DNA from: Halobacteriovorax sp.
GTDB lineage: Bacteria; Bdellovibrionota; Bacteriovoracia; Bacteriovoracales; Bacteriovoracaceae
Assembly: GCA_002720865.1 (NCBI GenBank)
Contig: PBIO01000032.1
Coordinates: 1 to 63,897 of the forward strand
DNA: 63,897 nt
Direction: 5' to 3'
The position numbers and the translations under genes were made by a program. Under the pieces are notes generated by a model, which saw nothing but the letters and a program-made list of their open reading frames with translations, was not told the origin of the DNA and searched no databases. Positions within the stretch are counted from its first letter, which is position 1, and every line of letters begins with the position of its first letter. Positions 19,578-31,819 of the stretch are shown one piece after another.

Positions 19578-19653
19578 GGGGGTATAGCTCAGTTGGGAGA
19601 GCGCTTCGCTGGCAGTGAAGAGGTCCTCGGTTCGATCCCGGGTACCTCCACCA
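19578..19653 (+). tRNA. tRNA-Ala (anticodon GGC)
   Basis: The 76-nt sequence folds as a standard cloverleaf. The acceptor stem GGGGGTA pairs with TACCTCC (one G-T pair). The D-arm has GCTC/GAGC. The anticodon loop CTGGCAG gives anticodon GGC on the stem CTTCG/TGAAG. The T-loop is TTCGATC. The CCA end is encoded. It reads GCC and GCU alanine codons. It stands alone between the Trp-rich gene and the dienelactone hydrolase gene. Confidence 0.97.
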
Positions 19654-21525: not shown

Positions 21526-22593
21526 ATGAGAGTTTTTAATGATGTCATTCAAGCTAGCCTAGAAGAGCTAATTGATTACAAGTTAATGGGTGAATTCGAA
21601 TCCCTACAGCTTGAAAATTATGCTCTAGCAATCAAGGCCCATATTAGTGGGGATACGGTTGAGCTTCAAAAAGCGATAGACTCACTTGAAGGCTGCTTTA
21701 AAAAGCTAGCAAATTATCGCCTAGCTATTCTCAACAAAGAATTTCAAACGGAAGAACTTTCGGTAAACGAAGATTTTATGGGCGAAGCTCATTTTCTTAT
21801 GGGTCTAAACTTTGTTTACCACTCAGAGCACTTATTTGCTAAAAAGCATTTTCAAAAGGCATATCAATTCCTATGGAGATCTGGTGCGAAGAAAAAAGCT
21901 ATTAAATCACTATTAAATGTTGTTGTTTCTGAATCAAGAGAAAACAATCACAAAAAACTAATCGTTGATTATGAATTTATCACTAAAAAAGCCCTATCAA
22001 TTGGAGACAATATTAGCGCAGGGATTAGTCAGCTAAATATCTCTAGAGAATTTCAAATGTTAGGGGCCTTTGAACTAGCTTTTAAAACTTGTAATAGGGC
22101 CATTAATCTTCTTGAGGGTGATTTAGGTACTTCTCACTACTACTTTGCGATTATCCATAGATGTCATCTTCTTGTTGACCTCAAAAGGTTTCCGGAAGCC
22201 CTGGTTGACTTTCAAAAAGCTAAGGCATCTCCCTTTAAAGAAAACAAAAAAGCTCTTGATGTAGTTGAAGCCCTACTTGGCGATACAAAAGAGATCGATC
22301 TAAGTCATTTAGAACCTACCTGGAAAGCTCGACTACAAGATCATAGAAATGGAGTAAGCTTCAAAGACTTAACAGAGTCTGAGTCTCAACTCGTAAAATT
22401 CCTATCCAGCGGACCAAAAAGCAAACTAGAAATTATAGATGAGCTCTATGGAAAGAACCTAGACTTTGAGTCAGTAGATTCACGTTTTAGAGTTCTCTTA
22501 ATGAGATTAAGAAAGAAAAAACCAAACCTAGTAGTTTACTACCAAAAAAAATATGAGATCAGTGATGAAAACTTTTTATCTGAAATTGCTTAA
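21526..22593 (+). CDS. TPR-like protein with C-terminal winged-helix DNA-binding domain
   Basis: Encodes 355 residues. The first 260 are helical, TPR-like repeats (for example EAHFLMGLNFVYHSEHLFAKKHFQKAYQFL). From about residue 280 comes an OmpR/SARP-like winged helix (LTESESQLVKFLSSGPKSKLEIIDELYG, then SRFRVLLMRLRKKKP). This is the reverse of the usual SARP order, where the DNA-binding domain comes first. GAAGGAG precedes the ATG. Its end overlaps the start of the protease gene, so the two are coupled. Confidence 0.75.
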   Translation: MRVFNDVIQASLEELIDYKLMGEFESLQLENYALAIKAHISGDTVELQKAIDSLEGCFKKLANYRLAILNKEFQTEELSVNEDFMGEAHFLMGLNFVYHSEHLFAKKHFQKAYQFLWRSGAKKKAIKSLLNVVVSESRENNHKKLIVDYEFITKKALSIGDNISAGISQLNISREFQMLGAFELAFKTCNRAINLLEGDLGTSHYYFAIIHRCHLLVDLKRFPEALVDFQKAKASPFKENKKALDVVEALLGDTKEIDLSHLEPTWKARLQDHRNGVSFKDLTESESQLVKFLSSGPKSKLEIIDELYGKNLDFESVDSRFRVLLMRLRKKKPNLVVYYQKKYEISDENFLSEIA

Positions 22594-24160
22594 GGCCATA
22601 GTTCTTCTTGGACTAATCCTTAATTCAGCCATGGCATCTACTGATCCTCAGTGGATGGTGAAGATAACTTCTCAAGTTTCAGAAAAAGAATCAGTAACAG
22701 GAACAGGTTACCTCGTTCAGGTTGGTAATCAAATTTATGTAAGAACGGCCGCCCATGTGACCCTTGGGCTTGAAAACGTTAGCCTTAGTACCGGTGACGG
22801 ACAAGAACTTACTATCAATAAAGGTCAAGGCCTAACAAACAATAGCAATGATGATCAATTTATTTCAATCACTCAAAAAGACTTAAAGGTTCTTGGCGTT
22901 TATAAGGAAAACAGAGGTGCTTTTATAGTCAATCGTGAGACTTTAAAGGAAGCAAAAGAATCCAATAAAAAAAAAATGGTTGAAAGTGGTGATGACTCTG
23001 CATTTTACCTCGTTCCTTCGTGGACAAGAGGAAAGCCCAGAGAGTTTAAGTCAAAAGGAAAGTCGCTTCTAAGTTCAGACTTAAAAGGTTCTGCCCATGC
23101 ACAAGAATTAAGAAGCTCACTTACTGGCAACGTTGCAATAGCAGATATGCAAATTGTTCCAGGAGAAAGTGGTTCAGCACTAATCAAAGAAAATATCATC
23201 TACGGACATGCCCAATCATTTCAAAGAAGTTTTGAGCATTCAAGCTTCTCAACACCAAAGGTTGAAGAGAAAACTGTTCAAGCCCTTGTAAAAGGAAAAA
23301 AAGGTAGCCTCGATAATACAATTTGGAAAAGGCAAAATGGCGTCTTCTTTAGAGAAAGACAAACTAAAAGCGGATTAGTTCGAGAAGCAAACTTTATTAC
23401 AACAAAAGCAGGAGACGGTATCATAGCAGGCGGCGGAGACGGTATTATTGCAGGCGGCGGAGACGGTATTATTGCAGGCGGCGGAGACGGTATCATCGCA
23501 GGCGGCGGAGACGGTATTATCGCAGGCGGAAACAGTTCTGAAGAAAAAGTCTTACCAGGAATGGGAATGATTTATAATGACGAACCAACTTATGCCTTTA
23601 AAGTTACGAGATTTCTTGAAAACGGAAACCTAGAAAAAGAAGTCTATTATGCAAATTGGGAAAATTACCTTTATATAGACGAGTTAATGAAAAACAAAAA
23701 AAGCACTTTGATTGTTAAACCCATCACTAGTGTTGATGAGCTTGCCAAGATTATCGAAAAGAAATCGATGAATAGTCCTAGTGCAAAACGCTGCTCAATC
23801 AGCCAAGCAGAGTTAAATAATGGTTTTATTACCATTAGCCTCCCTGGTTTTAAGAGTCTAAGAGTAAGCCTTGAAAGTATCACACCAATTCATAAGATAG
23901 TTAGGTCTTCGAAAGACTCTTCTGACTGGACTGTTGATCTTAGAGGGCTTTTCTCAGTAGACCCATCAGAACTAGATAAAGAAACAAAAGGAAGTTTTAT
24001 CACATTAAGACATCCTAGCTTTTCCCACGTAAGACTAGCCTGTAAGCTCGAAATGGAAGAAATTCAAACTAAAGCGATCTCACAAACGAGTAGAAATACA
24101 ATAAAAACAAAGACTTTCCCCACAGAAGAAAGCAATTCACAAACCTATTTCAGAAAATAG
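22565..24160 (+). CDS. Exported trypsin-like serine protease with Gly-rich tandem repeat
   Basis: The start at 22565 (or 22553, four codons earlier) gives about 531 residues with a signal peptide ending near AMA/S. The protease part has His64 in RTAAHVT and Ser202 in PGESGSAL, the chymotrypsin-like active-site motifs; an Asp around 96-106 is a possible third member. Residues about 283-322 are five copies of GDGIIAGG. The C-terminal 200 residues are of unknown fold with two cysteines. The gene is coupled to the TPR-winged-helix regulator. Confidence 0.7.
   Translation: MKTFYLKLLKAIVLLGLILNSAMASTDPQWMVKITSQVSEKESVTGTGYLVQVGNQIYVRTAAHVTLGLENVSLSTGDGQELTINKGQGLTNNSNDDQFISITQKDLKVLGVYKENRGAFIVNRETLKEAKESNKKKMVESGDDSAFYLVPSWTRGKPREFKSKGKSLLSSDLKGSAHAQELRSSLTGNVAIADMQIVPGESGSALIKENIIYGHAQSFQRSFEHSSFSTPKVEEKTVQALVKGKKGSLDNTIWKRQNGVFFRERQTKSGLVREANFITTKAGDGIIAGGGDGIIAGGGDGIIAGGGDGIIAGGGDGIIAGGNSSEEKVLPGMGMIYNDEPTYAFKVTRFLENGNLEKEVYYANWENYLYIDELMKNKKSTLIVKPITSVDELAKIIEKKSMNSPSAKRCSISQAELNNGFITISLPGFKSLRVSLESITPIHKIVRSSKDSSDWTVDLRGLFSVDPSELDKETKGSFITLRHPSFSHVRLACKLEMEEIQTKAISQTSRNTIKTKTFPTEESNSQTYFRK
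23410..23529 (+). repeat. Five tandem 24-bp units encoding GDGIIAGG
   Basis: Five in-frame 24-bp units (23410, 23434, 23458, 23482, 23506) each begin GGAGACGGTAT and end GCAGGCGG. They differ mainly at third codon positions. The encoded Gly/Asp octapeptide could form a beta-roll-like or flexible linker. The units can change number by slippage without shifting the frame. Confidence 0.9.
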
Positions 24161-25382: not shown

Positions 25383-25619
25383 ATGAGACAGAAACAAATT
25401 GACCTATTTAGCACGAATTTGAGACGAGACAGGGCCATCATTCAATACGTAAGAAGCTTAGAGGATAGTCATTACCTCGTTAATATCTACGATCTTTCTA
25501 AAAAAGTTAAATCCAAGCTTTACGAATATCTTAAGTCTGGATGCGATATCGATAAAACCCCGGCCATCGTTGTGGATGGCGAAATCCTAAGTAGCTATAA
25601 CGATCTTAAAGCGAGCTAG
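25383..25619 (+). CDS. Small thioredoxin-fold protein without CxxC
   Basis: The ATG at 25383 with GGAGG upstream gives 78 residues. The chain resembles a glutaredoxin or thioredoxin fold: a helix and strand (HYLVNIYDLSKK), then TPAIVVDGEILSSYNDL with the cis-proline loop. There is no CxxC, only one cysteine (SGCDID), so it is not a standard reductase. Motif copy C drives it. Its last codons form the left copy of the 30-bp direct repeat that brackets the antiporter gene. Confidence 0.65.
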   Translation: MRQKQIDLFSTNLRRDRAIIQYVRSLEDSHYLVNIYDLSKKVKSKLYEYLKSGCDIDKTPAIVVDGEILSSYNDLKAS

Positions 25620-25637
25620 GAAATTGAGTATCTAAAG
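25608..25637. repeat. 30-bp direct repeat, left copy, bracketing the antiporter gene
   Basis: Positions 25608-25637 match 26555-26584 at 26 of 30 bases, starting with AAAGCGAGCTAGG. This copy holds the stop codons of both the thioredoxin-fold gene (plus) and the antiporter gene (minus). The two copies are 947 bp apart. Confidence 0.85.
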
Positions 25638-26554
25638 CTTAGGTACGAGATAAAGAGAATGACGAGAATGACCCCTTCCGGTCTTGTTAGTGTTCGGTCG
25701 CTTCTAAATAATGGATAGCAAATTATTGTGGCACCTAGCATGACCGGAAAGTCTATCCTGACGAGCTCATTACTCACAACGAGAGCACTTTCAGTAACAA
25801 CTCCTGAAACGCCTCCGATTGCTAGTATATTATAAAGATTACTTCCAACCACATTACCTATGGCAAGATCCCCTTTTCCTCTGATTGCGGCCATAACTGA
25901 AGCAATGACTTCTGGGAGTGAGGTTCCGCAGGCTACAATAGTTAGGCCAATAATTGTTTCTGAAACCCCTAAGGAGCGGGCCACCTCACTAGTTCCAAGA
26001 ACCAAGAATTTTGCTCCATAGATAACCGAAACTAATCCGACAAGAATTAAGATAGAGTTTATTAATAGTGAAGGCTTAACTCCTTCGTTTAGCTCTTTAC
26101 CCTTGGTTTCTTTAAGGGCATTTTTCACTAGTAGGTATGTATAACTAATACAAAGTCCTATCAAGAAAACAGCTTCATACTTCGCTAGCTTTTGGTCCCA
26201 AAGAAATCCATAAAAAAGGAATGTAATAAAAATAAGAAAAGGAATCTCTTTTTTAATAATTGATAAATTTATTTTTAAGGGAATGATGAGTGAGGATAAA
26301 CCTAGGATAAAGAGAATATTAAAAATATTACTCCCTATAATATTACCCATGGCAATCTCTGGATTACCAGACATACTGGCCTTTATACTAACTGCTAGTT
26401 CTGGAGCACTTGTTCCTAGGGCCATAATTGTTAGCCCCACAACGATGGAAGGTATTCCTAAACGAAGGGCAATTGAAGAAGCTCCTCTTACAAGGCCTTC
26501 TCCTCCGGCAATTAGTAATATGAAACCTATTATAATTTGAACAGTGCTAGTCAT
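25616..26554 (-). CDS. Na+/Ca2+ antiporter (CaCA family, YrbG/CaxA-like)
   Basis: The 312-residue integral membrane protein has about ten hydrophobic segments in two homologous halves. Each half has the CaCA alpha-repeat: VGLTIMALGTSAPELAVS with GNIIGSNIFNILFILG, and IGLTIVACGTSLPEVIAS with GNVVGSNLYNILAIGG. It exchanges sodium or potassium for calcium across the inner membrane. It is the last gene of the operon starting with the NhaR-like regulator. It is bracketed by a 30-bp direct repeat, and its final residues RYSIS copy those of the preceding PP2C protein (RYSAS). No Shine-Dalgarno is evident. Confidence 0.9.
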   Translation of the reverse strand: MTSTVQIIIGFILLIAGGEGLVRGASSIALRLGIPSIVVGLTIMALGTSAPELAVSIKASMSGNPEIAMGNIIGSNIFNILFILGLSSLIIPLKINLSIIKKEIPFLIFITFLFYGFLWDQKLAKYEAVFLIGLCISYTYLLVKNALKETKGKELNEGVKPSLLINSILILVGLVSVIYGAKFLVLGTSEVARSLGVSETIIGLTIVACGTSLPEVIASVMAAIRGKGDLAIGNVVGSNLYNILAIGGVSGVVTESALVVSNELVRIDFPVMLGATIICYPLFRSDRTLTRPEGVILVILFISYLSFRYSIS

Positions 26555-26584
26555 AAAGCGAGCTAGGAGGCTGAGTATCTGAAG
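26555..26584. repeat. 30-bp direct repeat, right copy
   Basis: The second copy of the repeat at 25608-25637. It spans the 8-bp gap before the antiporter start and the last codons of the PP2C gene. Confidence 0.85.
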
Positions 26585-27336
26585 AGGATAAGTGAGTTAT
26601 CGTCGTAAAGATAAGTTTCCGGGTCCTCTTCAGTTTTCTTTTTATAATTCAATACTCTTTCTTCAAATGATCCGGCCGTTGAAAAAGAGGCGATCTCCTC
26701 GATACGAAAATGCTTTGAAACTCCGTCGCTCATAAGAGCGATTATATCCCCATCCGCTAAAGGGATTTTTTGTGAGACTTCGATTCGCATGGGCTCAAAG
26801 CCTACTCCGTTTGAAACAATATTATCTTCCACAAGATGAGCCTCTTCCGATTGCTCATGGGGAATAAGACCCGATTCAATTCCGTAGCCAAGGGGTGAAT
26901 GCTCAATGGTTCGGTACTTTATTTTTCCGCGGCTTCCAAAAAGGTAGGAAACGGAGTCGCCGCAATTAAAAAACTGTACCTGACCTTCCTCGATAAGGAC
27001 TCCCGTAAAGGTAGCCCCGGCCCCAATTTTGAGGGCCTTAACTTCTAGATCAGCTTTTTCAATGGCATCTAGGAATTCTCCTCGGTCTAAGGATTTTGAT
27101 AATGCGTTTAGAATCGTTTCACAGACGATCTTGGAAGCTCTTTCTCCTCCCTGGTGACCGCCCATTCCATCAGAAACGACGAGGGCCTTACACTGCTCAT
27201 CTACGGCATAGACCCCAAGGCAATCTTGATTAGGCTTTTCGTAAATGGACTTACAGGAAAGTAAATCAGCGCTACCGTTTTTATACTCACAAAGAGTATG
27301 TTCTTTTTCCGATTGTAGAATGATGGACTTGCTCAT
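26563..27336 (-). CDS. PP2C-type serine/threonine phosphatase
   Basis: The 257-residue soluble protein has the PPM/PP2C metal-binding signatures: YAVDEQCKALVVSDGMGGHQGGERAS, FNCGDSVSYLF, ALMSDGVSKH and the terminal DDNSLILF. It removes phosphate from Ser/Thr residues using Mn2+ or Mg2+. Its start overlaps the kinase gene by one base, so the two form a coupled kinase/phosphatase switch, probably with the kinase or its targets as substrate. Confidence 0.92.
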   Translation of the reverse strand: MSKSIILQSEKEHTLCEYKNGSADLLSCKSIYEKPNQDCLGVYAVDEQCKALVVSDGMGGHQGGERASKIVCETILNALSKSLDRGEFLDAIEKADLEVKALKIGAGATFTGVLIEEGQVQFFNCGDSVSYLFGSRGKIKYRTIEHSPLGYGIESGLIPHEQSEEAHLVEDNIVSNGVGFEPMRIEVSQKIPLADGDIIALMSDGVSKHFRIEEIASFSTAGSFEERVLNYKKKTEEDPETYLYDDNSLILFRYSAS

Positions 27337-28067
27337 TAGTTTCTCCAGCTCATAGTTTCAAGATGAACTCTTAACTGCGAGAGGTTCTTAAACTTCTTTA
27401 GGATTAAGCTCTTTTTTAAACCACAACAAATATCTTTAACTTCTTGAGGTTGTTTTTGATAAGTTTTAGCTCCCCCAAGTACATCGTAAAGAATCCTTAC
27501 GGCGTCACAAATATCATCTTTAAAGTCTTGGGACTTAGGTGCCCCCCAATAAAACATATCAAGGAGTTTTAACTCAAAGCCAAGGCCAAATCTTTGAACG
27601 ATTATATTATCTGTATGAAGGTCCCCATGATATTCCCTTAACCCGTGAATATCCTCTAGACCTTTTACTAAAGTATGAAGTAAAAGCAGCCCCTGAAAAG
27701 GATGCATCTTTTTTCCTTTAAGAGAGTTTAAGAAGGAAGAAAGGGTTTCACCCTCAACATAATCAGAAATTAGATAAGTAATCTTATGATCTTCTATAAC
27801 GATCGTATCCTGCGTCAGATATTGAATGAGTATAGGACAAGACCTAAGTTTATGTAGTTTATTGGCATAAAATTTTGCTGACTTATTTGCTTTATTTCTT
27901 TCTGGTAGGAAGAACTTGGCCGCTCGCTCAATACCCGTAGCAACTTCGCGAATTTTATAAACCTCTCCTTCCCAGCCTTCCCCAAGTTTTTCAATGATCT
28001 CATACTTATCTGAGATAATTTCTCCTTCAGGAAAGTCGAATTTTAAGATTTTCTTTTTCTTTTTCAT
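27336..28067 (-). CDS. Small Ser/Thr protein kinase-like protein
   Basis: The 243-residue protein has a Gly-rich loop (GEGWEGEVYK, 29-38), a candidate ATP-binding Lys51 (AAKFF) and the catalytic loop HGDLHTDN (147-154; Asp149, Asn154). The DFG motif is altered to LDMFYW, keeping the metal-binding Asp. HGD in place of HRD is common in small bacterial kinases. There is no membrane segment or sensor domain. It lies between the deacylase and PP2C genes in one operon. Confidence 0.8.
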   Translation of the reverse strand: MKKKKKILKFDFPEGEIISDKYEIIEKLGEGWEGEVYKIREVATGIERAAKFFLPERNKANKSAKFYANKLHKLRSCPILIQYLTQDTIVIEDHKITYLISDYVEGETLSSFLNSLKGKKMHPFQGLLLLHTLVKGLEDIHGLREYHGDLHTDNIIVQRFGLGFELKLLDMFYWGAPKSQDFKDDICDAVRILYDVLGGAKTYQKQPQEVKDICCGLKKSLILKKFKNLSQLRVHLETMSWRN

Positions 28068-28076
28068 AACTGTCCC

Positions 28077-29093
28077 TTATTCAAAGTCTTCATGCCCAGG
28101 AATCTCATCAGGAGTAGGCTCAATCAAGTTTACACCAAGATGAAGGATCCTGGTTCCACCATCACAATTTGGTCTCACATTCTTTCCTATAACAACTCCA
28201 GCTCGATCGGCCTTAACCTCTTCTTTTACTTGCCCGAAGACATCATAAACTTTTGCAATGACCTGCCCTTCTTTAATTTCATCGGAGAGCTTTGGAAAGA
28301 CTTCTACAATGCCGCCTCTTTTTGAATGAATCCAATAGGAGTGATCACAAACAAAGGCGTCTGTAACCATATCCACAACTTTACCTTTAATCATTTTTAA
28401 AAATCTCATGGTATTTAAAACACCATCTAAGGTTTCATCCACGAGGTTTTGTTGAAAGGCGTTTGGATTTCCAATCTCAACCGTAATACAAGGAATGCCA
28501 TTATCATTGGCCCAAGACCGTAGGGTTCCCTCTTCATCTGACTTTTGAACGATTATATGAGGATTTTGAAGATAGGCCAAGGTCCTGGTTTCTTCTTGTT
28601 CTAAATCAGCTCTTAGGTAAAGGGAGTTTACTCTTCCATGACTGGCCGTATGCATATCTAGAAGATAATCGAATTTTTTTACAATCTTATTAATAAAATA
28701 GTGAGCGTAAATATTACTTGGGGGTCCCCCCTCTTTTTTACCAGGCATGATTCTATTTAAATCCACATTATCGGAAAAGAACCTTTGGTTTAGAAGGTAG
28801 CCAGGAACATTGGCGATGGGGACAAGAACCAGGCTTCCTTTTAATTTCTTAGGATCTATTTCTTGAATTAGTTTAAAGATTGTAGAAATTCCATTTAGCT
28901 CGTCCCCGTGAATGGCCGCGGTGATTCCGAGAACAGGGCCCTTTTCCATTCCTCTAACAACGACGAGAGGGACTCTCCAAGGAACCCCGAGGGCATTATC
29001 AGAAATATGAACTTGAAATCTATGAACTTCTCCTCTTTTGAGGCTTGAGATTTTTAATTCTTCTTTAGTTTTTACTGTTAATATTTTTTCCAT
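28077..29093 (-). CDS. Succinylglutamate desuccinylase/aspartoacylase-like zinc deacylase
   Basis: The 338-residue protein has the M14-like zinc site: HGDE at 62-65 (His62, Glu65), LDMHTAS with His148, and the probable catalytic Glu206 in ITVEIG. A C-terminal beta-rich domain follows. The family cleaves N-acyl amino acids or related amides. It starts 1 bp after the ATP-grasp-like ligase gene ends, so one enzyme may make and the other may break the same bond. That is inference. Confidence 0.85.
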   Translation of the reverse strand: MEKILTVKTKEELKISSLKRGEVHRFQVHISDNALGVPWRVPLVVVRGMEKGPVLGITAAIHGDELNGISTIFKLIQEIDPKKLKGSLVLVPIANVPGYLLNQRFFSDNVDLNRIMPGKKEGGPPSNIYAHYFINKIVKKFDYLLDMHTASHGRVNSLYLRADLEQEETRTLAYLQNPHIIVQKSDEEGTLRSWANDNGIPCITVEIGNPNAFQQNLVDETLDGVLNTMRFLKMIKGKVVDMVTDAFVCDHSYWIHSKRGGIVEVFPKLSDEIKEGQVIAKVYDVFGQVKEEVKADRAGVVIGKNVRPNCDGGTRILHLGVNLIEPTPDEIPGHEDFE

Positions 29094-29094
29094 G

Positions 29095-30525
29095 CTACAC
29101 CATGATTTCCTTTAAAAGTGACTCGTCATTATCAAGGGATTTAAAAAGTTTTATCCTAAACTGTCCCTTGGAAGTTATTAAATTCTGGGCCATTTTATCT
29201 ATAGCGATAATCGTTAAAACAGTTTGAATATAGGCTTCAATTAAATCATCTGTTCCAATTCCTAATTGATTAAAATCTTTCCTATCCATAAGCATCAATC
29301 TTGAGGTATCTGAATCCCATTGATTTTCCCCTGTCTTAATAGAAAGGTTTGTTCCTAAAACATCCCAACTTGCCGTGGTGAGCTCCGACGTTAAGGGAGT
29401 TCTGGCCCTTCTTGCATAAATAGCGCAAGGGGCAAATCCTTTTGGCGTGGAATAAACCATCATCCTAAGATCTGCGATAAAGATATTTCCTTTTTTATTG
29501 GGAACTGTCCCTACGTGAAAGAAACGTCCGTGCTCACTACTGGAGCTCCAGTCATAATGACCAATTAAGCTTTGAACAATAAATTGGTCATAGGGATAAT
29601 CCTCTTTCATAAAGGCATCAAGCTCTTCATCACTTGTAATGGTATAAACACCTTGCCCCGCATTTGAATAGGGGTTTTTAATAACGGCCTTTCCGCCGAA
29701 TTTTTGAACCCAAAGAGGAATCTCAAGCTTACTTACATCTTTAATAGTCTCTGGCATATTAATTTTTAGCCCAGTTTGGGCAATCTCAGAGTTAAAAAGC
29801 TCATAGGCCTTATTAGCAAGAAGCTTATTTCTCCCCCCAGAAAGACAAACAAGAGTTGAGTTATAAATAAAGGTTTTAGTTACGACTGGAATTCTATTCC
29901 AAGGCTTTTGAGTCACGTAACGAAAGGCAGCTCTAATTGGAACTTCTTCTCCATCTTGAAGAACATGCATAACTCCGTCTTTAAAACTAACATGTTGATC
30001 CTCTTCGTTAAAATGAGGGATTAATAAAACTTCTTCTCCGGACAGATCAGCCAGGGTTGCGGCGTAGCCTGAGGTTTCCATATAGTTTTTATCATAAATA
30101 ACAGCAAGCTTTCCCTTTGGAAGACGCTTCTTTTTCTTAACTGCTGGAAGAAAAGAGTTTTCTATTAAGAATTTATAACCGCGGTGCTCATCAGAATCAC
30201 TTCTAGGAGGCATGGACTTTTGTCCAGAAGGACAGGAGTTCGTTTCAAGAACAACCATCTTTCGGTTGCCAGCCTCAGTAGTCACATAAAAAAGATCCGA
30301 GCCTCCCCAGTAAAAATACTTTGCTTCATATTTTAAAAGTTCCCTTAATGCATCCACATCCACTTGAGGATTTAAATGAGAGTATCTATTTAAGATTCTC
30401 TCATGATCGAGATTAAAAAAATGGCTGACAAGGGCATGAAGCTGAGAGTTCAAAGCCTTTGGATAAAAGTGGTTCTCTTGTTCAAATTCATCTGGCTTAA
30501 ACAGCTCAATTTTTCTATCTTTCAT
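29095..30525 (-). CDS. ATP-grasp-like ligase, possibly circularly permuted
   Basis: The 476-residue soluble protein has features of ATP-grasp amide ligases: VVLETNSCPSGQKSMP near residue 90, AAFRYV, SGGRNKLLANKAYELFN, GGKAVIKNPYSNAGQGVYTI (a Lys and Gly-rich loop) and IADLRMMVY. The order, with the substrate-type segment first, resembles the glutathionylspermidine-synthase-like permuted group. The product is unknown. It lies between a LysR regulator (2 bp) and an AstE/AspA-like deacylase (1 bp). Confidence 0.6.
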   Translation of the reverse strand: MKDRKIELFKPDEFEQENHFYPKALNSQLHALVSHFFNLDHERILNRYSHLNPQVDVDALRELLKYEAKYFYWGGSDLFYVTTEAGNRKMVVLETNSCPSGQKSMPPRSDSDEHRGYKFLIENSFLPAVKKKKRLPKGKLAVIYDKNYMETSGYAATLADLSGEEVLLIPHFNEEDQHVSFKDGVMHVLQDGEEVPIRAAFRYVTQKPWNRIPVVTKTFIYNSTLVCLSGGRNKLLANKAYELFNSEIAQTGLKINMPETIKDVSKLEIPLWVQKFGGKAVIKNPYSNAGQGVYTITSDEELDAFMKEDYPYDQFIVQSLIGHYDWSSSSEHGRFFHVGTVPNKKGNIFIADLRMMVYSTPKGFAPCAIYARRARTPLTSELTTASWDVLGTNLSIKTGENQWDSDTSRLMLMDRKDFNQLGIGTDDLIEAYIQTVLTIIAIDKMAQNLITSKGQFRIKLFKSLDNDESLLKEIMV

Positions 30526-30527
30526 TT

Positions 30528-31394
30528 TTATAACTCATTCTTTAGTAGTTTATAACCAAGCCCTTTATAACTCTTTTTTACAATTCCCCAAACAGAAGTT
30601 TCAAGTTCTGTAACCTCTCCTAGAACAATAACATCCTTGTTCTGGCAGATTCGATTCTTGGCTACCTCAGGAACGATCACAAAACCTAGTCCATTTTCAG
30701 CAACCATTTGCTGTAAATCTATATCATCTGCCTCACCTATTATTTTAGGAGAGATTGTATTCTTGGAGAAGAATAGCTCAATTTCATACTTTAGAAAGGA
30801 TTCATTTGTATAATTAAAAAAGGGAATCTCATTTAAGGATTCAGGGAATCCCTTTTTATGCTTTCGGTACTTTTTATGGGCAATTGCGTAGGCTTTATTG
30901 ACCCCCATACGATAGCTGTCCATGGTGCTTGAGATTGAGTCCTTTGAGTCAGTAAACACAATATCAAGATTCCCTTCCTCTAAATCTGCCAATAAAAGGT
31001 GCCGCTGGTTTTCGATAATATTCACAGCGACCTCATCTCTTCCAAAAAGAGGTAGAATATTATCGTAAAGAAAGTACTGGGACATAAAGTGAGTGATCCC
31101 AATATCTAAACTCTTCTTAGGAATATTTAACTTATTTCTTAATGTAGAAGTAAGTTCCCGGGACTGCTCAAAGATTTGCTCGGCGTACCTTAAAGCTAGC
31201 TTCCCTTCTTTAGTCAAACTAAGGCTTCTATTTTTTCTCTCAAAAAGCTGGCAATCAAAGAATTCCTCTAAAAGCTTAATTTGATCACTAATGGTGGGCT
31301 GAGAAACAAAGAGCTTTTCAGAGGCGGACTTGATTGAGCCCTCCATCGAGACAATATAAAAGTAGTATAAGTGGTTGAAATTTAAGCGATCCAT
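30528..31394 (-). CDS. NhaR-like LysR transcriptional regulator
   Basis: Encodes 288 residues with the opening LNFNHLYYFYIVSMEGSIKSASEKLFVSQPTISDQIKLLEEFFDCQLFERK, close to NhaR, the sodium-responsive activator of nhaA in enterobacteria. The effector domain follows. It is the first gene of an operon whose last gene is a cation antiporter, which fits an ion-sensing role. Motif copy D lies in the 119-bp gap to the divergent gene at 31514. Confidence 0.85.
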   Translation of the reverse strand: MDRLNFNHLYYFYIVSMEGSIKSASEKLFVSQPTISDQIKLLEEFFDCQLFERKNRSLSLTKEGKLALRYAEQIFEQSRELTSTLRNKLNIPKKSLDIGITHFMSQYFLYDNILPLFGRDEVAVNIIENQRHLLLADLEEGNLDIVFTDSKDSISSTMDSYRMGVNKAYAIAHKKYRKHKKGFPESLNEIPFFNYTNESFLKYEIELFFSKNTISPKIIGEADDIDLQQMVAENGLGFVIVPEVAKNRICQNKDVIVLGEVTELETSVWGIVKKSYKGLGYKLLKNEL

Positions 31395-31441
31395 TTATTC
31401 TCCTATTAAATATAGTTAACTTTAACCTAATTAAAAAAGTA

Positions 31442-31465
31442 AATAAAACGATTTTTCCTAAATCC
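31442..31465 (+). promoter_or_regulatory. AATAAAACGATT promoter-like motif, copy D
   Basis: Plus strand from 31442: AATAAAACGATTTTTCCTAA, then ATCC, followed after exactly 10 bp by GATAAT. It points to the exported protein gene at 31514 (72 bp), and lies 48 bp before the divergent NhaR-like gene. Confidence 0.6.
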
Positions 31466-31513
31466 GTTTTTGCCCGATAATCCGATTAACAAGAAACACT
31501 TAGAGGTGGAAAA

Positions 31514-31747
31514 ATGAAAGAATCAAACTTTAAAATTAGCTTAGCCCTACTCTGCGCCGGAATTGTGCTTTTACTCTCACTTCCAGGAAAAGCGCAGGAA
31601 ACTATTAATGTACCAAGTTCAACTGACTCTGTTTCAGAGGAAATGAGCGCAGTTGAAGAAGGAGCGACCGAAGAGGAAGTTCCCACCACTATTATGAATC
31701 CGGATAACAGTGAACTTTCCGAAGATGAGGACCTCATCGAGGAATAG
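31514..31747 (+). CDS. Small exported acidic protein
   Basis: Encodes 77 residues with a signal peptide or anchor (ISLALLCAGIVLLLSLPGKAQ). A strongly acidic, Ser/Thr/Glu-rich, probably disordered tail of about 48 residues follows. GAGG precedes the ATG. It is divergent from the NhaR-like operon and is the likely target of motif copy D. An acidic exported tail could bind cations, which is speculation. Confidence 0.65.
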   Translation: MKESNFKISLALLCAGIVLLLSLPGKAQETINVPSSTDSVSEEMSAVEEGATEEEVPTTIMNPDNSELSEDEDLIEE

Positions 31748-31764
31748 TTATCTTTCAACCTCTA

Positions 31765-31803
31765 TGGGGTCGTCATAAGAGTCTCTTCTTATCGGCGGCC
31801 CCA
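31765..31803. terminator. Imperfect hairpin between convergent genes
   Basis: TGGGG and GGCG/GTCG-type arms with TAAGA/TCTTA pair imperfectly around a short loop between the genes ending at 31747 and 31820. No clear T-run is present, so terminator activity is uncertain. Confidence 0.35.
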
Positions 31804-31819
31804 GTGGTGTAGAGAAGAA

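Follow-up and report, generated by a model that had tools for sequence, protein, structure and literature searches.

At the tail of an operon in Halobacteriovorax sp., a single calcium/sodium antiporter gene lies exactly between two copies of a short direct repeat, an arrangement that raises the question of whether these copies act as recombination sites for the loss and regain of the gene or are what remains of a past event. Within the window, by which we mean the entire 63,897-nucleotide stretch of DNA that was analysed, the original prediction had placed the copies at 25608-25637 and 26555-26584 (26 of 30 bases identical, 947 bp apart). We recovered this pair and found it slightly longer, with 29 of 34 positions identical between 25604-25637 and 26551-26584 at a spacing of 947. 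The repeat core is identical at 27 of 31 positions, the longest exact run is 15 bp, and the copies have diverged by 13-15%; three of the five mismatches make up one codon (ATT versus GCC). The repeat itself carries no strand assignment: copy 1 spans the 3' end of a plus-strand thioredoxin-like gene where it overlaps the 3' end of the minus-strand antiporter gene, and copy 2 spans the minus-strand 3' end of a PP2C phosphatase gene, an 8-nt spacer and the antiporter start codon. As had been proposed, and as follows from the ORF and repeat coordinates, recombination between the copies would delete precisely the antiporter gene and leave overlapping convergent stops, with PP2C receiving the CTAG overlap that the antiporter gene now shares with the thioredoxin-like gene.

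With a score of 19 (+1/-2), this is the top local repeat of the 64-kb window once tandem and paralogous repeats are set aside; ranking next are a match between the two antiporter halves and a short motif between genes. In 100 order-3 Markov sequences the best score was 18, giving a fitted E of ~0.007 per window, a value at which such a score could arise by chance about once or less per genome and which speaks for a chance similarity of two gene ends. Against this, the stop codons of the antiporter and PP2C, neighboring genes on one strand, fall within the two copies in the same frame, an in-register coincidence that makes a chance origin far less likely, and the DNA homologous to a sister species breaks off at the same spot; we therefore consider coincidence very unlikely. 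The similarity is confined to the repeat, as gapped alignment found none beyond its edges (right flank 24 versus 26.3 for shuffled sequences; left flank 20 versus 25.2), and a pattern search of the 4.9-Mb genome with three mismatches returned these two copies only. No transcription terminator or structured RNA was found at the repeat, and copy 1 folds no better than its shuffles (z +1.03).

The antiporter is the last of six consecutive minus-strand genes, separated in operon order by 2, 1, 9, -1 and 8 nt, a spacing from which co-transcription as one operon is probable. The first encodes a LysR-family regulator (30528-31394; 288 aa) whose closest NCBIfam model, NhaR, scores below its cut-off; it is followed by a 476-aa protein (29095-30525) that is ATP-grasp/RimK-like by eye only and matches no Pfam or NCBIfam model, an AstE/AspA-type deacylase (28077-29093; 338 aa), a protein kinase (27336-28067; 243 aa) that is the usual partner of this PP2C, the PP2C-type Ser/Thr phosphatase (26563-27336; 257 aa), and the antiporter (25616-26554; 312 aa; PF01699). 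The latter matches TIGR00367 over residues 4-304 with a score of 242.7 against a cut-off of 179.65, and its residues 7-304 can be aligned with the solved exchanger NCX_Mj. Converging on it from the other side is the small thioredoxin-like ORF (25383-25619, plus strand; 78 aa), which has a Shine-Dalgarno sequence (GGAGG) ahead of its ATG at 25383 and a stop codon that overlaps that of the antiporter gene at CTAG (25616-25619). This ORF lacks a CxxC motif and is shorter at its C-terminus than two distant homologues (23-27% identical) from two other genomes; it is possibly a decaying or repurposed gene.

Two further features of this part of the window concern repeated sequence. The motif AATAATCGTTTTATT, with at most one mismatch, has 11 matches in the 4.9-Mb genome against three for a reversed control. 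Five of the 11 lie in a single 8-kb stretch of the window (23816, 24936, 25272, and, on the minus strand, 25324 and 31442), and one match stands upstream of the LysR gene, a position at which the motif is conserved in the sister species (C74:1186), so that it is possibly a candidate operator of the NhaR-like LysR regulator. Copies of this motif also account for a 25-bp repeat flanking an 81-aa gene. Separately, a 535-aa gene (22553-24160) contains an array of 24-nt repeats coding GGGDGIIA at 23411-23529.

Which of the two genes owns the duplicated tail can be read from their relatives. In the window, the antiporter ends in RYSIS and PP2C in RYSAS, the I/A difference being the codon noted above. 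PP2C relatives end comparably, in FKYASS (sister species), FKYKLNK (G022) and FKYNLEK (G010), which makes a short stretch behind F-K/R-Y an ordinary feature of PP2C, while antiporter relatives have a non-conserved tail with unrelated end residues; the coding half of the repeat thus belongs, in all likelihood, to PP2C. This fits the last five antiporter codons being a copy of the PP2C tail, as the original prediction had suggested. The remaining half falls at the thioredoxin-like gene's end in copy 1 and in the PP2C/antiporter spacer in copy 2.

The sister species, G001, provides the closest comparison. A block of 80.6% DNA identity runs from 26580 to 31817 and ends inside copy 2. Across it the operon is conserved, terminating with PP2C (85% identical), and both the antiporter and the thioredoxin-like gene are absent; downstream of a PP2C end that differs from that of the window lie 156 nt, a CheY gene and then a 274-aa gene. 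No antiporter remnant was found in the G001 spacer (14 versus 13.1 +/- 2.2 for shuffled sequences). G001 is a metagenome-assembled genome that is 81% complete, and the copy in G111 is the same DNA at 99.9% identity, probably cross-binned contamination and thus no second witness; a scan of genome contigs recovered G001-type DNA alone, twice. More widely, the antiporter is present in none of 37 other PP2C loci and PP2C in none of 24 antiporter loci, and among the 38 PP2C loci examined the window alone has an antiporter or thioredoxin-like gene beside PP2C. Within the phylum, antiporter homologues reach 47% identity at most and are located elsewhere. The window genome (G000), G001 and a third species of the genus (G002) each carry a further, distant antiporter homologue at another site, which makes the window antiporter an extra copy. 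Plasmid and viral searches with the antiporter returned distant antiporters or nothing, and no close relative. Together, these comparisons support the view that the antiporter is an added, lineage-specific accessory gene, the direction of change being read mainly from the one close relative, G001; the gene may instead be ancestral and have been lost there.

The wider neighborhood is itself variable. From ~19.7 to ~33-34 kb, beginning at a tRNA-Ala(GGC) gene (19578-19653, plus strand) that forms its left edge, the three species all differ in gene content. In G002 (99% complete) both flanks are retained, the left one up to the tRNA and the right one from ~34 kb, and between them lie molybdenum-cofactor-type genes, so assigned by eye, and others, with no LysR operon and no antiporter; in G001, too, the DNA after the tRNA is different. 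The comparisons with both species, which show different content between the same flanks as in a hot spot of gene gain, thus place the antiporter among the accessory genes of a variable interval. A search for an island-type att repeat matching the tRNA found none, and none of the window genes scanned matched an integrase, transposase or recombinase family.

Taking these observations together, we favor as the probable explanation that the antiporter was gained at the operon tail by illegitimate recombination, which left a 31-34-bp direct-repeat scar around it. The repeat most likely records ordinary gene gain at a hot spot of variable gene content, and a switch or mobile cassette is the less likely reading. 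Behind PP2C, then the last gene of a LysR/ATP-grasp-like/AstE/kinase/PP2C operon, an accessory Na+/Ca2+ antiporter gene would have been added, and recombination would have left a 31-34-bp stretch that includes the PP2C 3' end on either side of the newcomer, thereby making it the sixth gene of the operon, 8 nt behind PP2C. Two routes can be envisaged: insertion at a former PP2C/thioredoxin-like junction with duplication of 31-34 bp of the target, or fusion of a segment carrying the antiporter to a truncated thioredoxin-like gene, the joint being patched by a copy of the PP2C 3' end. We infer the route itself, and the former PP2C/thioredoxin-like neighborhood is presumed. An empty site, with PP2C adjoining the thioredoxin-like gene across one repeat copy, is absent from all available genomes; the junction that the original prediction expected in relatives did not materialize, the neighbors in G001 and G002 being entirely different.

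The break of G001 homology at 26580, inside the repeat, counts in favor of gene gain. A comparatively unlikely, yet credible, alternative is that the antiporter is an older operon member and that no insertion took place, 31-34 nt having been copied later from the PP2C 3' end and pasted at the antiporter/thioredoxin-like junction, as a templated patch in a deletion or joining event that truncated the thioredoxin-like gene. The missing C-terminal stretch of that ORF would agree with this, although homologues only 23-27% identical mean that its length says little, as would the extension of the repeat into the antiporter start codon region (TTTATGA versus TTTAAGA). Such a history, however, needs losses of the antiporter, since G001 and the other PP2C loci lack it.

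Under the gene-gain account, the event does not appear recent, because the divergence between the copies approaches the 20% that separates G000 from G001 and because the antiporter is native in composition: its GC content (0.386) and codon score (10th percentile) are ordinary, PP2C being the more unusual gene. A foreign origin of the antiporter is accordingly unsupported by composition. Thus, of the earlier suggestion of a recent insertion of a cargo gene, the added gene stands, given G001 and the 37 PP2C loci without it, and the recency does not. The repeat would now be an old, passive scar, at which loss by slippage or annealing might occur, though it would be rare.

The same repeat had also been proposed as a switch for reversible loss, and the ~30-bp copies as functional sites for excision and regain of the antiporter, or as the ends of a mobile cassette, remain to be weighed. 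The exact geometry, whereby recombination would take out a single gene and re-create a neat convergent overlap, speaks for this reading, as does RecA-independent excision at imperfect short repeats, a very infrequent event that PCR revealed in E. coli (PMC5426353). That study, of the microcin H47 island and pUY-FRT, also sets the scale: excision was readily detected with 46-bp perfect repeats 886 bp apart, and proved difficult to detect where an island offered perfect runs of 11-20 bp; this gives no indication of a working switch here. The copies are not the near-identical sites of a switch, agreeing at 29 of 34 positions, being 13-15% diverged and sharing no exact run above 15 bp; they are the only two in the genome, no integrase or other recombinase family was matched among the genes checked, and no plasmid or virus searched carries a close relative of the antiporter. 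We consequently regard a functional switch or mobile cassette as extremely improbable.

Whether such scars are common in this genome was addressed by a census of local direct repeats over 2.0 Mb of G000, most of which proved to be paralogues or repeats within one gene. The sole close parallel is a 151-nt, 94% identical pair (C14:668929-669079/669785-669935; L133 8929-9079/9785-9935) whose first copy begins within the final 24 nt of an upstream 195-aa gene and which flanks one 178-aa gene. Other candidates dissolved on inspection: the sequence of C14:179825 resembles part of two tRNA genes, C11:302829 proved to be a palindrome of the dispersed kind, and at C14:931992 a duplicate of the start of the following gene has degraded (gapped score 183 versus 74 +/- 9). 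Scars of this kind around added genes are thus occasional, not systematic, in G000. It is highly doubtful that this lineage repeatedly adds single genes behind stop codons, placing a copy of the upstream 3' tail beyond the newcomer; were it true, duplication lengths from 31-34 nt to 151 nt would point to an uncharacterized gene-capture or end-joining route in predatory bacteria.

Two other repeats were observed along the way. A 51-nt repeat of 94% identity (L133 5902-5952/7984-8034) surrounds a HigBA-like toxin-antitoxin pair and two further genes; it lies 3 kb from the 151-nt pair and gives a 48-nt match with two mismatches. The dispersed element AAGTAACCA[C/G]GTAC has 22 exact copies in G000 (for example, L133 9067 and 9144) against none for a reversed control, occurs in G002 as well, and is a candidate REP-like repeat.

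The locus thus offers a readable trace of an operon gaining a tail gene, in which the newcomer would sit 8 nt behind its predecessor, take over the stop region and leave a duplicated tail. It adds one more example of operon evolution by tail accretion in Bdellovibrionota and demonstrates no new mechanism.

Among known systems, transposon target-site duplications, which usually measure 2-14 bp, likewise flank inserted DNA as direct repeats. Here, however, the repeat is 31-34 bp long and the insert lacks both a transposase and terminal inverted repeats: the antiporter is the sole ORF between the copies, and an inverted-repeat scan found none bounding it, so a transposon insertion was rejected. 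The locus resembles an integron gene cassette in being a single, promoterless-looking gene bracketed by direct repeats. It differs in having two copies genome-wide, no array, no attC-like hairpin and no integron integrase among the window genes scanned, and an attC site, with its inverted structure, GTTRRRY core and many copies, was likewise rejected on the uniqueness of the pair, its folding and the lack of GTTRRRY. Nothing that would support a mobile system, be it a transposase, inverted repeats, a cassette site or a further copy of the pair elsewhere in the genome, was found. The islands and plasmid segments of PMC5426353 are similar in that cargo lies between imperfect short direct repeats with no dedicated recombinase seen; unlike those, the present case comprises one gene, 31-34-bp repeats and a 15-bp longest exact run, and any excision is hypothetical. 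Finally, regions of difference in Halobacteriovorax (PMC5760749) and gene-content hot spots next to tRNA genes are comparable. The interval studied here departs from them in having no integrase or transposase among the genes checked and no att repeat to the tRNA, and matches them in holding different genes within the same flanks in close strains or species.
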